DNA of 64,000 bases from Thermoanaerobaculia bacterium (GTDB lineage Bacteria > Acidobacteriota > Thermoanaerobaculia > Multivoradales > J023): assembly GCA_028066595.1 (NCBI GenBank), contig JALCBJ010000003.1, positions 134,936 through 198,935 of the forward strand, read 5' to 3'. Shown piece by piece: positions 14,937-57,942 of the stretch; positions within the stretch are counted from its first letter, which is position 1, and every line of letters starts with the position of its first letter. The notes under the pieces are model-generated. The model saw only the letters and a program-made list of their open reading frames with translations, ran no database searches and was not told where the DNA came from. The translations under genes and the position numbers were made by a program.

Positions 14937-16547
14937 TTACCAGGCGCTGGTGTTGCCCGACTCGAATCCGTCCTCGAAGATGGGCAAGCTGCCTTCCCGG
15001 CCGAAGACCAGGAAGCGTGGGCTGCCGGCCCCGGTCGAGAAGTAAGCGAAGCAGGCACCGGCCCAAAGGTAGGGATTGGGGCCGTGGGGCTGGGTCGAGT
15101 TGTAGTCGCCGGAGCGGTTCGGGATCGGGCCGCTGGTGCCGGTCAGCGCCACATGGTTCTCGAGTGGCGCAAAGACGTCTCCATTGACGTCGTCCGCGAT
15201 CCAGGCAGCGCAGGTGGCATGCAGAGAATTACTGCCGGCCATGATCGTGCCAGCCACGTCACCATTGGCGTTGACCGCCGCCGAGGGATAGACGAAAGCG
15301 ACCGAGCCGCTCCAGATGATCGGCTCGCCGACGAGGCCCAAGGCGGGTTCCGAGAACTGGGCGATGCGGGTGTAGGGCTGGGGGAAGGTGGCATCCTGCG
15401 ACGGAACCCACATGAAGCCGACCGAGCCGTCGGCAACCCAGGCGCCAGCCATCCGCTGATCGATGAAGCCGCACCAGTCGCGACCATCGGGACCTGGGCA
15501 GGTGCGGGGGGAGTTGCTCCAGGCGGTGACCGCACGGTCGAACGGTGTCGGACTGGTCGACGCCTCCGGCCATCGCCAGATGCGGATCGACGCGGTCGAG
15601 ATGTGATCGGCGAAATACATGATGTCGCTGGCGCCGCGCGTTAGCTTGAAGGAGAAAAAGCTGGAGTCGGTGTAGACGTCGAACGGGATCGACCCGTTGC
15701 ATGTGCCGATCTCGTCGAGCGGATAGCGGGCCACGAAAGCGCCTGTGAAGCCGCCGGCGATGGCGAAGACATTGCTCGAATGGAAGAGGTGATCGTCGCT
15801 GATCGCCAGATCAGGGAAGTCGGCGAACTGGCCGGTACCAAAACCAAAAAGCGACGGCGTGATGTTGTAGAAGCAGTCGAAGGTACCGTCAGCTCCGGCG
15901 TCGACATTGATTCGCTGTGTACCGTTGGAGGCGTCGGGTAGGTACTGCTGCAGGTAGAAGATGGCGTCCGTGCCTGGATCGTAGACTGTGACCTGATCGC
16001 AGCAGAATCCGTCGTTGGCGGGAGGGTTTGGGCTAGTGAAGGGGTTGATGTAGCTAAAGGTGTCGCCACCGTCGTCCGACGTCGTGGCATACCAGTTGCC
16101 GGTGAACAGCACCCGGTCCGGCGCGCTGGCGACCGACGGCTCGTTGACCGTGGCACTGAATCCCGCAGGGATCACCGTGCCCGGATCGGTGTTCTTGACA
16201 AAAACGAATGAGTTGAGACTGAGACCCTTGCCCTGCAGGTCCGTCGGCGGGTTGGCTGGGGGCAACTCCGGATCGATCGCGACGTCGTATTTGAGCTCGG
16301 GGATGTGGTGCTTCTTGGTGAGCAGGCTCTGCCAACGGCGCTCGAGTTGCTCGAGCGTCGCGGCATCGACCTCAGCAGCCTTGTCGGCAGGCAGAGATGG
16401 CCCCCGCTGGACCTCGAGCGTCCCTTGCCGGGTCTGACCTGTGTGTTTCCATAGACGCTCCTCTGAGGGCTCGTCCTGGGCCGTGAGCGGAGCATTTGGG
16501 GCACAGAAGAAAAGCCCTGCTACGAGGATGCTCGGCACAAATCTCAT
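14937..16547 (-). CDS. secreted Asp-box protein with C-terminal DGFESG motif
   Basis: The 536-residue protein has a signal peptide (MRFVPSILVAGLFFCAPNA, cleavage near TAQD) and is predicted to be exported. A BNR/Asp-box-like element (TTSDDGGDTFSYI) and the many beta-type segments suggest a beta-propeller related to sialidase-like folds, but no catalytic signature was seen. The last 14 residues read IFEDGFESGNTSAW, a motif shared with two other secreted proteins of this window. I chose the ATG at 16547 because GGAGG lies 5 nt upstream; a TTG at 16559 is the alternative. It stands alone on the minus strand between two toxin-antitoxin modules. Confidence 0.8.
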   Translation of the reverse strand: MRFVPSILVAGLFFCAPNAPLTAQDEPSEERLWKHTGQTRQGTLEVQRGPSLPADKAAEVDAATLEQLERRWQSLLTKKHHIPELKYDVAIDPELPPANPPTDLQGKGLSLNSFVFVKNTDPGTVIPAGFSATVNEPSVASAPDRVLFTGNWYATTSDDGGDTFSYINPFTSPNPPANDGFCCDQVTVYDPGTDAIFYLQQYLPDASNGTQRINVDAGADGTFDCFYNITPSLFGFGTGQFADFPDLAISDDHLFHSSNVFAIAGGFTGAFVARYPLDEIGTCNGSIPFDVYTDSSFFSFKLTRGASDIMYFADHISTASIRIWRWPEASTSPTPFDRAVTAWSNSPRTCPGPDGRDWCGFIDQRMAGAWVADGSVGFMWVPSQDATFPQPYTRIAQFSEPALGLVGEPIIWSGSVAFVYPSAAVNANGDVAGTIMAGSNSLHATCAAWIADDVNGDVFAPLENHVALTGTSGPIPNRSGDYNSTQPHGPNPYLWAGACFAYFSTGAGSPRFLVFGREGSLPIFEDGFESGNTSAW

Positions 16548-16584
16548 GACGACCTCCAACGTTCGGTCCTAGCGGATGTTGTCG

Positions 16585-50896: not shown

Positions 50897-51011
50897 GAAT
50901 CCTTACCGGGTCGAATGAGGAACGGAACCGTGCACCGCCGGATCCTACCCCGCGGTGTCCGGCTCCGCTGCGAGTTTGCGTTCTACAGCGCGAACGAACC
51001 TCGAGGACATC

Positions 51012-52643
51012 ATGAACACCCATTCGCATTCCCGCTTGGACCTCCACTCCCTACTCCACATCGGCGGCATCTTCGCCTTCATTCTCCTGCTCGGAGGAGA
51101 AATCACCTGGGCCGAATCGCCTACCTGGCAACAACTGTCCTTCGGTGGCGACTTCAGTCAAGTCCGCCCGAATCAGTACCAGATCAGTTCAGACTCTCGA
51201 TGGGTCGTCTTCTCGCACGACCCGGACTTCGAGAATGTAGATCAGCTCTATAGCGTGCCTTTAGACGGTTCCGCACCACCCCAACGCATCAGTGGCCTGC
51301 TGGGTGCGTCTAGCCTCGGCAGTTTCGAGGTCACGCCCGATGGAGCCCGCGTGGTCTACACCGCGAGGCAAGATGACCCTGAGAACACGGATCTCTATCG
51401 GGTCTCGATCGAAGGCGGCACGATCCTTCGATTGAACCTGCCCGGAGAGGGCTCCGTCGGTTCGTTCCGCGTCTCACCGGACGGCACGCTCGTGGCCTAC
51501 GTCTCTTTCGGCAATGCGGATATCTCGTTGTCCGTCGTTCCACTCGCTGGCGGGACGCCGACACTTCTCACGTCCGTCCCTTATGTATCCAACCAGTCTC
51601 TTTCCTGGCACGAGTATCGATTCACACCCACATCCGATCGAATCGTCTTCGGTGCCTACGACTCGTCGGAAGTCTACTCCCTGCATAGCGTTGCAGTGCA
51701 GGGCGGGAGCAGCATGTCTCTGGGAGTAGTGTCGGACGGCGGCGACAACACCTTCATTCGTTTCGAGATCAGCCCGGATGGTCAGAGCGTCGTCTATCCA
51801 ACCTTGAACGGCTTCTCCTTCGATGGTCTGTACTCCGTACCGGTGAACGGAGGCACTCGCACGAGCCTGCTCGGGGCGCTGCCCGGGCGGCCGGATTGGT
51901 TTCGCATCACGGCCGACAGTAGTCGGGTCGTTCATCTCGCCCAGGGCCACCAGGGTGCAGAGGCGTGGGGCCTCTACTCGACACCGATCGGAGGCGGTCT
52001 GGTGGATCTCGTGGCGAACCTCGGAACCGGCAATTCTCAACCCGACGTCGAACTGGACTCTAGCGGCAATCGGCTCGTCTTCACCTTCGACTATGAAACG
52101 GCGGGAATCCGAGAGATCTTCAGTGTCTCCTCCGCCGGCGGCGCGCCCGTCAAACTGAACCCTACTCTGCCCGGCGGGGCCTCGGTGAGTGCTTTCAAGA
52201 TTTCGGCCGACAGTCAATGGGTCGTCTACCGCGCAGATCAGCTGCTCCCCGGAGCCCCGATGCTGTGGCACACACCCATCGGCGGACCAGCGTCGGAGAA
52301 CCAGGCGGTCTTCTTTGGCAGCCCAGTCTCACAGGCGGTCTCGAGCGCTTGGCGCATCGATCCACGTAGCGACCGCGTTGTCGTGCTGTCAAATCTATTC
52401 TTCGTCGACGGGGTGCGCCGACCCTGGCGGGCGTTCTTCACAGGGCAGGAGGACGAGCTAGTTGACGAGACCGAGTTCGTTGCGGGCGGCGAAGCTATCA
52501 CCTTCCGATTCGCGCCCAATGGCGACATTGTCTACCGGGCCGACCAGAATCTCGATCAGAAATTCGAGCTCTTCTCCGTCACCTTCCCTCCCGACCAGAT
52601 CTTCGCCGACGGATTCGAGTCGGGCGACGTAGAGGCCTGGTAG
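51012..52643 (+). CDS. secreted PD40/WD40-like propeller protein with DGFESG C-terminus
   Basis: The 543-residue protein has an export signal (LLHIGGIFAFILLLGGEITWA) and repeated blades of the TolB/PD40 type, such as SSDSRWVVFSHD, TPDGARVVYTARQD, SPDGTLVAYVSF, SPDGQSVVYPTL and SADSQWVVYRAD. It ends with IFADGFESGDVEAW, the motif shared with two other exported proteins in the window. The ATG at 51012 follows GAGGA; a GTG or ATG further upstream is possible but adds no signal sequence. Function unknown. Confidence 0.85.
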   Translation: MNTHSHSRLDLHSLLHIGGIFAFILLLGGEITWAESPTWQQLSFGGDFSQVRPNQYQISSDSRWVVFSHDPDFENVDQLYSVPLDGSAPPQRISGLLGASSLGSFEVTPDGARVVYTARQDDPENTDLYRVSIEGGTILRLNLPGEGSVGSFRVSPDGTLVAYVSFGNADISLSVVPLAGGTPTLLTSVPYVSNQSLSWHEYRFTPTSDRIVFGAYDSSEVYSLHSVAVQGGSSMSLGVVSDGGDNTFIRFEISPDGQSVVYPTLNGFSFDGLYSVPVNGGTRTSLLGALPGRPDWFRITADSSRVVHLAQGHQGAEAWGLYSTPIGGGLVDLVANLGTGNSQPDVELDSSGNRLVFTFDYETAGIREIFSVSSAGGAPVKLNPTLPGGASVSAFKISADSQWVVYRADQLLPGAPMLWHTPIGGPASENQAVFFGSPVSQAVSSAWRIDPRSDRVVVLSNLFFVDGVRRPWRAFFTGQEDELVDETEFVAGGEAITFRFAPNGDIVYRADQNLDQKFELFSVTFPPDQIFADGFESGDVEAW

Positions 52644-56250: not shown

Positions 56251-57810
56251 TCACTCACAGCCGCCGAAACCCTCCACGAGGGCGCGGATCCGATGCCGCG
56301 CGAGGTCTTTCCACACCGGCCGACGAGGTGACAACGATCCGCCCAGGCTGCTCGACCAGGCCATCAGGTTGCCGGACTCGAAACCATCGGCAAAGATTCC
56401 GACCGCTTCGGGGGCCCCGAACTCCACAGAGCCGATATCGCAGGTGGCGACGGTATCTCCATCGGGTCCGTCCCAGATACGCTCCCGACGCGACTGATCC
56501 ATTGCCAGGATCTCACCCGTCGGCCCTTGGCATCCCGCAGGCTCACCCGCATCCAGAAGAGGGCTGGTGGGAAACGGCGAAAGCACCGATGTGCCGAAGT
56601 CGCCCACCGGCTCCAAACATGTGTCGAGGACGGGGTCCAAGGGAGACGCGAGAGTGCCAGCCTGGTCGCTGCCCGTCATGCCAGTGATCGAGCATCCGAA
56701 ACCGACGACGGAAAAGAGGTTGTGCCCCAGAGAATCCACGGAACCGAAACAGTCGGGAGCCTCGCTGCCTCCCGCCGACAGGTCGGCGTTGCCACCGAAT
56801 GCGGTGTTGCGGGTGCGAAGGATCCCGCTCTCGACATAGAAGCCACCACCGTCACCGGCGTCATCCATGTCCGTGTCCGCTTCGTTGAACGCCACGGTCG
56901 AGCTGAAGAGCTCCAGGCTACCGACCGCACCGACAAAGAGGCCCCCGCCGTCGCCCTTACTGAAGTTGCGTGCGATCGTCGAGTTGACGAAACGGACAGC
57001 ATCGGAGAGTGAATCACCCGCCATGAAAACGCCGCCGCCATCACGATCAGCGAGGCTGAAGTAGACCGAGCTGCTGTCGATCCACGCATTCGAAGCGTGG
57101 ATCGCACCACCGTCGGCCGTGGCGTAGCTGTTTAGCACCTCGCTGCGCTCCAGGGTCAGAAGGCTGGAGCTGGACATGTAGATTCCGCCCCCGAAGGCGG
57201 ACTCGCCGGAGTTGACGAACGAATCCACGAGCGTTGTGGGCCCCTCGGAGCTGATGCCGCCGCCAAAAAGCGTCGAGCGGCATCTGCTCAGAATCGAGCT
57301 TCGCAACTCCAGCTTGCTGGTAGCAGTCCGGACGAAGATGCAGCCTCCGAACCCGACGGTGTCACCGTCCCGCAACTCGATTCCTTCCAGCCTCAGATCG
57401 GCCCCGTCGAAGACCTCGAACACTCGGTCGAGCACGTTGCCGTCGATGCGCACCAGACTGTCGCTCTGCGGCCGAATCGTCAGGTCGTCGTAGACATCGA
57501 AGTCACCGGTTTGGTTGAGGTCCTCATTGCTCCCGGCCACCGTGATGGCGTGATCGCCAGAGAAAGCCAGCAAGATCGTGTCGTGCCCGGATCCCTCCGT
57601 ACAACCGTGGAGAGCCTCATCTGCATTGGCGGAGTCGATGGCCTCCCGCAGGGTGCAACGACTGTCGGCGACGATGCCGTCCGAGGTCGTATTCACAATG
57701 ATCTCGGCTCCATGCATCGGCAGCGAAACCGCGGCGAGTGTCAGCGTGAGAGACAGCAACACGAACCTCTTTGCCGAGTGAACGGCGCGGAACAAATCTC
57801 TTTCGAACAT
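56251..57810 (-). CDS. secreted CSLREA/beta-helix protein with internal DGFESG motif
   Basis: The 519-residue protein has a signal peptide (RFVLLSLTLTLAAVSLPMHGA), a CSLREA-type segment right after it (DSRCTLREAIDSANAD), then parallel beta-helix repeats (GGGIYMSSSS, GGAIHASNAW, DGGGVFMAGD, DGGGLFVGAV, DGGGFYVES) and a choice-of-anchor-Q-like end (LDAGEPAGCQG, CDIGSVEFG). IFADGFESGNLMAW is present at 56356-56397 but is followed by 34 more residues, unlike the other two proteins. GGAGA lies 8 nt before the ATG. It follows kinase 2 on the same strand with a 132-nt gap. Adhesin-like surface role is inference. Confidence 0.85.
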   Translation of the reverse strand: MFERDLFRAVHSAKRFVLLSLTLTLAAVSLPMHGAEIIVNTTSDGIVADSRCTLREAIDSANADEALHGCTEGSGHDTILLAFSGDHAITVAGSNEDLNQTGDFDVYDDLTIRPQSDSLVRIDGNVLDRVFEVFDGADLRLEGIELRDGDTVGFGGCIFVRTATSKLELRSSILSRCRSTLFGGGISSEGPTTLVDSFVNSGESAFGGGIYMSSSSLLTLERSEVLNSYATADGGAIHASNAWIDSSSVYFSLADRDGGGVFMAGDSLSDAVRFVNSTIARNFSKGDGGGLFVGAVGSLELFSSTVAFNEADTDMDDAGDGGGFYVESGILRTRNTAFGGNADLSAGGSEAPDCFGSVDSLGHNLFSVVGFGCSITGMTGSDQAGTLASPLDPVLDTCLEPVGDFGTSVLSPFPTSPLLDAGEPAGCQGPTGEILAMDQSRRERIWDGPDGDTVATCDIGSVEFGAPEAVGIFADGFESGNLMAWSSSLGGSLSPRRPVWKDLARHRIRALVEGFGGCE

Positions 57811-57942
57811 AGAAACGTCTCCGTGAAGTCGTAGTGGGTCGAGGGACGGCCAATGCGGCCCCCGACAGGCCCACGACATCGGGTTCACGGAGAGGACAAG
57901 GTCCCGAAAGACAGAGCCCAGACGAGTCGAAGTCAGAAGAAC

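Follow-up and report, generated by a model that had tools for sequence, protein, structure and literature searches.

More than one hundred exported proteins of a single Acidobacteriota genome carry a short tag whose residues appear, from alignments, to correspond to strand A, the opening strand of a concanavalin-A-like jelly-roll domain. A secreted protein made of the same domain without that strand, here called the receptor, accompanies the tag in most genomes that are rich in it. We think it rather probable that the two are the parts of one naturally split domain: the tag would complete the fold of its partner and dock the cargo on the envelope, binding and anchoring being the steps that we infer.

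Three tagged proteins in one window

The starting point was the window, a stretch of 64,000 nucleotides from a genome of the Thermoanaerobaculia (G000), in which three copies of the tag are found. Copy 1, IFEDGFESGNTSAW (14940-14981, minus strand), was read from translation and DNA and aligned with other copies in the genome. It is directly followed by a stop codon at 14937-14939 (minus strand) and is therefore a true C-terminus, in a short form of 14 residues. Its gene (14937..16559, minus strand) encodes an exported protein, as judged by eye from the signal peptide MRFVPSILVAGLFFCAPNAPLTAQ, and matches no model in Pfam or NCBIfam; the first-pass annotation had called it an Asp-box protein. 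Copy 2, IFADGFESGDVEAW (52599-52640, plus strand), has the same short form of 14 residues and forms an exact C-terminus, with the stop codon directly after it. It belongs to an exported PD40/TolB-like propeller (DPPIV_N) with matches to PF07676 in Pfam (5e-9) and, below the cut-off, to TIGR02800 in NCBIfam (5e-7). The coordinates of this gene (50955..52643, plus strand) are those of the open frame, within which the start is probably an ATG further downstream (MNTHSHSRL...).

Copy 3, IFADGFESGNLMAW (56356-56397, minus strand), is real and lies inside its protein, a CSLREA-domain, choice-of-anchor Q-like beta-helix with a signal peptide (56251..57888, minus strand). The family matches in NCBIfam are TIGR04214 (4.6e-6, over the cut-off) and NF041518 (0.0011, below the cut-off). 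The 34-residue tail behind this copy (56251-56355, minus strand) is dissimilar to the other tags, and a stop codon may have been lost here.

The first-pass annotation had described these copies as a frame of 14 residues at the end of three different folds. The three bodies are indeed unrelated, the first being without a family match, and the shared motif is real. The terminal position holds for copies 1 and 2 but not for copy 3 with its 34 further residues, and the full tag is longer: it has 19 residues, of which the two terminal copies of the window are shortened versions.

Form, number and constraint of the tag

A search of the 7.5 Mb genome with a 19-residue query (IFADGFESGDTSAWSATVP) identified at least 127 copies at E<=0.01 and 150 at E<=10, the count being a lower bound as 150 of 162 candidates were scored. 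Since the E-values are per genome, chance matches should be at most of order one. The consensus is IFSDGFESGNTSAWSSTVP-stop, with a length of 19 residues. Among 93 distinct copies that were read, 89 have a stop codon inside the sequence; it lies exactly 19 residues from the start of the tag in 56 of these 89 and at a distance of 14-21 residues in 80. Within the 56 full-length tags G5, F6, E7 and W14 are invariant, F2, D4 and G9 are nearly so, and the last residue is P in 43. End positions and invariant residues together define the full tag as IFxDGFESG[ND]TSAWSxT[VS]P-stop.

At the DNA level, all synonymous codons are used at the glycines of the tag (at G5, for example, GGA 14, GGC 26, GGG 8 and GGT 8 times). 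Such full variety at invariant residues shows that the constraint acts on the protein, and it rules out a copied DNA repeat or recent copying as the origin of the tag. The C-terminus is the usual but not an obligatory place, since the tag directly follows the signal peptide in three proteins (L018, L071, L151) and is located behind it or near the N-terminus in a fourth (L072, G000). A heuristic for signal peptides recognised 41 of 58 tagged open reading frames vs 51 of 123 untagged ones (p=0.00025), a moderate separation to which we give little weight because the heuristic misses obvious cases such as the protein with copy 1.

The tag itself matches no Pfam or NCBIfam model. Nearly all tags end 0-7 residues past the signature, leaving no hydrophobic stretch or basic tail, so that the early reading of the tag as lacking both a transmembrane helix and a basic tail is borne out by the copies read. 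An identity with PEP-CTERM, MYXO-CTERM or GlyGly-CTERM was rejected, as their architecture of signature, transmembrane helix and basic tail is not present. It had also been proposed that the tag is no named signal, in agreement with the absence of CTERM models on the window proteins and in the 25 NCBIfam families that 64 tagged proteins match most often (19 rarer families lie outside these 25). In the open-access literature, DGFESG has no text match and the matches of FESGD are unrelated.

Taxonomic spread and cargo families

Named relatives with the tag in a public scan are almost all metagenome-assembled genomes of Acidobacteriota, many of them labelled Thermoanaerobaculia, a class in the NCBI taxonomy. 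Within this class, to which the window belongs, 59 of 149 genomes match the tag at E<=0.001. In a sample of the phylum 10 of 396 genomes match at E<=1e-4; nine belong to the class and one lies outside. The tag is thus almost confined to one class of the Acidobacteriota. Its distribution inside the class is patchy, for example in family f4, where genus g7 is without tags and genera g21 and g28 have dozens.

Sixty-four tagged proteins of G000 span 58 Pfam families, including FG-GAP, beta-helix, glucose/sorbosone dehydrogenase, subtilase, reprolysin, MauG and Kelch, which confirms the initial impression of a short tag common to exported proteins with unrelated folds. Matches in NCBIfam include choice-of-anchor Q proteins as well as rhombosortase- and myxosortase-dependent M36 peptidases; elsewhere, these cargo families bear other surface-sorting signals, a point in favour of the split domain.

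A jelly-roll domain and its strandless relatives

In two proteins (L084, L133) the tag residues are not terminal and instead stand at the start of a region of about 245 residues at the C-terminus, which in L084 has a match to Laminin_G_3 in Pfam just below the cut-off. When G000 was searched with the part of the domain that follows the tag, a secreted protein was found that has the domain without its first strand (L169/L173). This receptor of G000 (G000:C190:161-763, which is L173:161-763, minus strand) is encoded outside the window and starts right behind its signal peptide. Stand-alone strandless proteins, summarised in a 27-member profile (A2), occur throughout the class, usually one per genome. 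The 28 receptor loci listed have a signal peptide and then, directly or nearly so, strand B; in nearly all loci read, the mature chain starts at or near the motif xLxVxxxAAxxGxxGLxV of this second strand. In a further alignment (A3) the receptors match intact homologues from strand B on, with strand A absent.

The counterpart to these strandless forms is L193 (from G064), a stand-alone intact protein in which the tag serves as the first strand (AQ-QIFADGFESGDTSAWSKARKPRGLDVSGNAARTGNFGLEI...FRTLSP). Taken together, tag and receptor make up the whole domain, divided in the A-B loop. Judged from the alignments, the receptors lack exactly one strand in comparison to their homologues, the feature expected of the acceptor domain in donor-strand systems. 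Many exported proteins of the class bear intact domains of the same family. The cultured Acanthopleuribacter pedis was considered as a carrier and set aside, as it has the intact domain only, with two tag-like matches and no A2-type strandless receptor that we could recognise. We also observed a resemblance between the ends of receptors, SFRTLAP-stop in many families, and those of tags, SxTVP-stop, both closing with T-[LV]-(A)-P.

The 27 receptor sequences have no match in NCBIfam and two stray weak ones in Pfam, and a sequence search of the PDB with the intact domain returned nothing useful. The AlphaFold2 model of the G000 receptor (mean pLDDT 92.2) is nearly all beta and, by Foldseek, ConA-like, with matches to ulvan and alginate lyases and lectin domains. 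In the model of L193 (pLDDT 94.2) two extra strands at the start (2-6 and 18-20) are formed by the residues of the tag, and the later strands match those of the receptor in order; here the X122 domains of Teredinibacter rank first in Foldseek, again ConA-like. By predicted fold, receptor and intact domain thus belong to the ConA-like/LamG jelly-roll superfamily. The first-pass annotation had named one refuting outcome in which the motif would prove to be the final strand of a single annotated domain family. What emerged is an odd variant of this: a strand of a domain after all, but apparently the first one, of a largely unannotated family, and detached and moved to the ends of other proteins.

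Co-occurrence of tag, receptor and candidate enzymes

For the comparison across the class, 44 of the 149 genomes were regarded as tag-rich (at least 5 tags at E<=0.001) and 90 as tagless (none), with 15 in between. Receptor status was assigned by hand, on the basis of coverage, open-frame length and a reading of the sequences. Of the 44 tag-rich genomes 38 have a strandless secreted receptor, vs 5 of the 90 tagless ones (p=1.3e-21); by genus the figures are about 25 of 29 vs 2 of 41 (p=1e-12), with related genomes or genera treated as independent in both tests. A strandless secreted jelly-roll protein does, then, track the tag. The proposal of a sorting or anchoring tag is largely supported.

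There are exceptions on both sides, and they count against a split domain. Six tag-rich genomes (G028, G037, G066, G070, G093, G103) have no receptor even at E<=1, three of them being at most 79% complete, and two genomes, G004 (L187) and G059 (L233), have a receptor and no good tags. The five tagless genomes with a receptor include SLH-bearing forms and one dockerin-bearing form. The receptor of G004 has an unusual extra N-terminal segment, which might fill the groove.

Could the similarity between tag and domain be a mere trace of shared ancestry, with no present contact? The tag would then be left over from truncation, or be an epitope in its own right (for polysaccharide, for instance), and its strandless counterpart would act alone. 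Intact domains are frequent enough on exported proteins of the class that truncation alone could yield tags. However, the invariant residues encoded by all synonymous codons in 56 copies on unrelated proteins speak for present-day selection, and a relic would lead one to expect neither gene pairs split in the A-B loop nor a strandless partner in almost all tag-rich genomes. We consider this explanation quite improbable.

A different possibility is a classical sorting signal that is read by a membrane protease or transpeptidase, with the strandless jelly roll as a dedicated substrate or accessory. PEP-CTERM (PMC1569441), GlyGly-CTERM (PMC3237569) and MYXO-CTERM (PMC11980579) work as such many-to-one terminal tags in other bacteria, and the cargo families described above overlap with rhombosortase- and myxosortase-dependent ones. 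Yet the tag has neither transmembrane helix nor basic tail and can occupy the mature N-terminus. Of the two enzyme families covered, exosortase homologues (PF09721) are not associated with the tag (29 of 44 tag-rich vs 51 of 90 tagless genomes, p=0.35), and rhombosortase over the cut-off occurs in few genomes (10 of 149, including 7 tag-rich ones). Both were dropped as partners, the former for the missing association and the latter for its rarity. A processing tag with a shared processing enzyme, as had been suggested, thus finds no support in these two families; as neither tracks the tag and some tags lie behind signal peptides, a processing enzyme is less likely, and we rate this alternative as very unlikely. 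Exosortase-family proteins of about 200 residues occur class-wide and independently of the tag (e.g. G011:C17:11196-11630 and G015:C96:29217-29651).

Gene neighbourhoods of the receptor

The preferred reading of a split domain gains from the arrangement of genes. In three loci of family f3 (L221, L237, L240) the stop codon of a tagged gene lies 2-4 bases upstream of the ATG of a receptor-like gene; these pairs have an insertion within the receptor domain. In family f6 (L191) a tagged gene also precedes the receptor gene, with a gap of 14 bases from stop to ATG, and in L219, L220 and L241 such genes are neighbours with a wider gap. SLH domains (PF00395) are found on the receptors of L191 and L219, next to which the tagged genes encode a reprolysin-like protease and a subtilase. 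No universal neighbour was found among the neighbourhoods read. Recurring are sulfatase-like genes (PF00884), which in several families adjoin the receptor gene, and glycosyltransferase or other polysaccharide genes in others (together in L186, L209, L232, L182, L189 and L206).

Another arrangement may link the receptor to regulation. The gene order in G000 is an ECF sigma factor (L173:1682-2245), a zf-HC2 anti-sigma factor with one membrane helix (L173:868-1710, minus strand) and the receptor, and the outer tail of the anti-sigma factor contains a tag-like segment (...LLLDGFESGRFGIWSILESTDGGFESGTLEGWS...). The same order is seen in G015, where an anti-sigma-like membrane protein (L210:1314-1877, minus strand) has the tag-like tail IFLDGFEPGDLSRW. 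In G074 a membrane protein near the receptor (the open reading frame upstream in L178) contains two tag-like motifs, and in G038 a sigma factor and a weak zf-HC2 protein lie near the receptor, with no clear tag-like motif. It is possible that free receptor is sensed via the tagged anti-sigma factor, as the sequences from two or three genomes suggest. The tag-like tails beside the receptor in G000 and G015 also speak for a split domain.

The same observations bear on the strongest rival, a role of the strandless protein as a periplasmic chaperone or secretion pilot, which would cap the tag by completing its own fold with that strand during export and pass the cargo to an outer-membrane machine. 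Most stand-alone receptors are small and soluble with no visible anchor of their own, as would befit a chaperone, and the tag-like anti-sigma tails beside the receptor in G000 and G015 would suit the sensing of free chaperone. In contrast, the SLH domains on some receptors and the sulfatase and polysaccharide neighbours fit a role at the surface better. A chaperone is therefore, in our view, unlikely, even if it deserves more attention than the other alternatives.

A probable split domain as genome-wide tag

How could such a system work? A jelly-roll domain would have been split in two, with strand A as the terminal tag on more than 100 exported proteins and the remainder as the receptor. Cargo and receptor would be exported separately; the tag of the cargo would then enter the open edge of the receptor and complete its beta-sandwich, and it would be held there uncleaved, presumably by non-covalent binding. 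Retention at the envelope would be achieved via SLH domains where these are present and otherwise via different contacts, perhaps with surface polysaccharide. Surface anchoring is probably the purpose of the pair. The fuller scenario, in which the strand spread to more than 100 exported proteins per genome and the receptor, perhaps sensed by a tagged anti-sigma factor, collects them on the envelope, we judge to have about an even chance. Points against a split domain are the missing anchor on most stand-alone receptors and the high expression that a single receptor gene for about 130 cargoes would require.

The general scheme of many cargoes, one short tag and one receptor is already known from dockerin-cohesin and CTERM systems, and pili provide examples of folds completed by a donated strand. 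We know of no system with a genome-wide tag that is one strand of a split domain, and none was found in the open-access literature, an absence that is weak evidence. If the best explanation holds, the mechanism is categorically new: a genome-wide tag read via completion of a split fold would be a new principle of sorting or surface display. To our knowledge, bacterial terminal sorting signals of such size are read by membrane enzymes. A split domain would also explain a part of the exported proteome in a large uncultured group of Acidobacteriota, allow many hypothetical proteins to be assigned to the envelope and provide a naturally occurring tag/catcher pair, the tag with 19 and the catcher with about 180 residues. 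Should the link to the receptor fail and the tag alone be real, it would still be a new terminal signal, though one of a known kind.

Comparison with known systems

Dockerin-cohesin systems also use one terminal docking element on many secreted proteins, with a receptor module that can be held to the cell by SLH domains (PMC8063739, PMC5590126). Both features, the single terminal element on many cargoes and, in some lineages, the SLH-bearing receptor, recur here. None of the listed family matches of tag, cargo and receptor is a dockerin or cohesin. Dockerins are folded modules of about 60-70 residues that bind calcium, whereas the element described here is one strand of 19 residues and the receptor a ConA-like domain minus that strand.

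The pairs PEP-CTERM/exosortase, GlyGly-CTERM/rhombosortase and MYXO-CTERM/myxosortase share with our case a short terminal tag on dozens of exported proteins with unrelated folds, the occurrence in diderm bacteria and the location of some of the genes near polysaccharide loci. They differ in the transmembrane helix, the basic tail and the family signature, which the present tag lacks, and in their enzymes, as exosortase does not track it.

In terms of fold, the closest relatives are X122/Cip1-like jelly rolls (PDB 8q28, 8q29, 8q2a), the best Foldseek matches of L193. X122 domains are extracellular beta-jelly-rolls of unknown function (PMC10916295). Other ConA-like domains such as Laminin_G_3 and PL7 alginate lyases have the jelly-roll fold as well. 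In contrast to the split domain, X122 and these other domains, with about 15% identity, are internal in large proteins, and splitting has not been reported for them.

Finally, donor-strand complementation in chaperone-usher and other pili, as well as SpyTag/SpyCatcher, would be the nearest parallels in mechanism: if our explanation holds, a terminal strand fills the beta-sandwich of another chain in all of them. SpyTag/SpyCatcher is man-made and covalent, and the natural donor-strand cases we know of build polymers of few subunit types. Here, by comparison, no covalent chemistry is indicated, and one strand would serve more than 100 unrelated cargoes.
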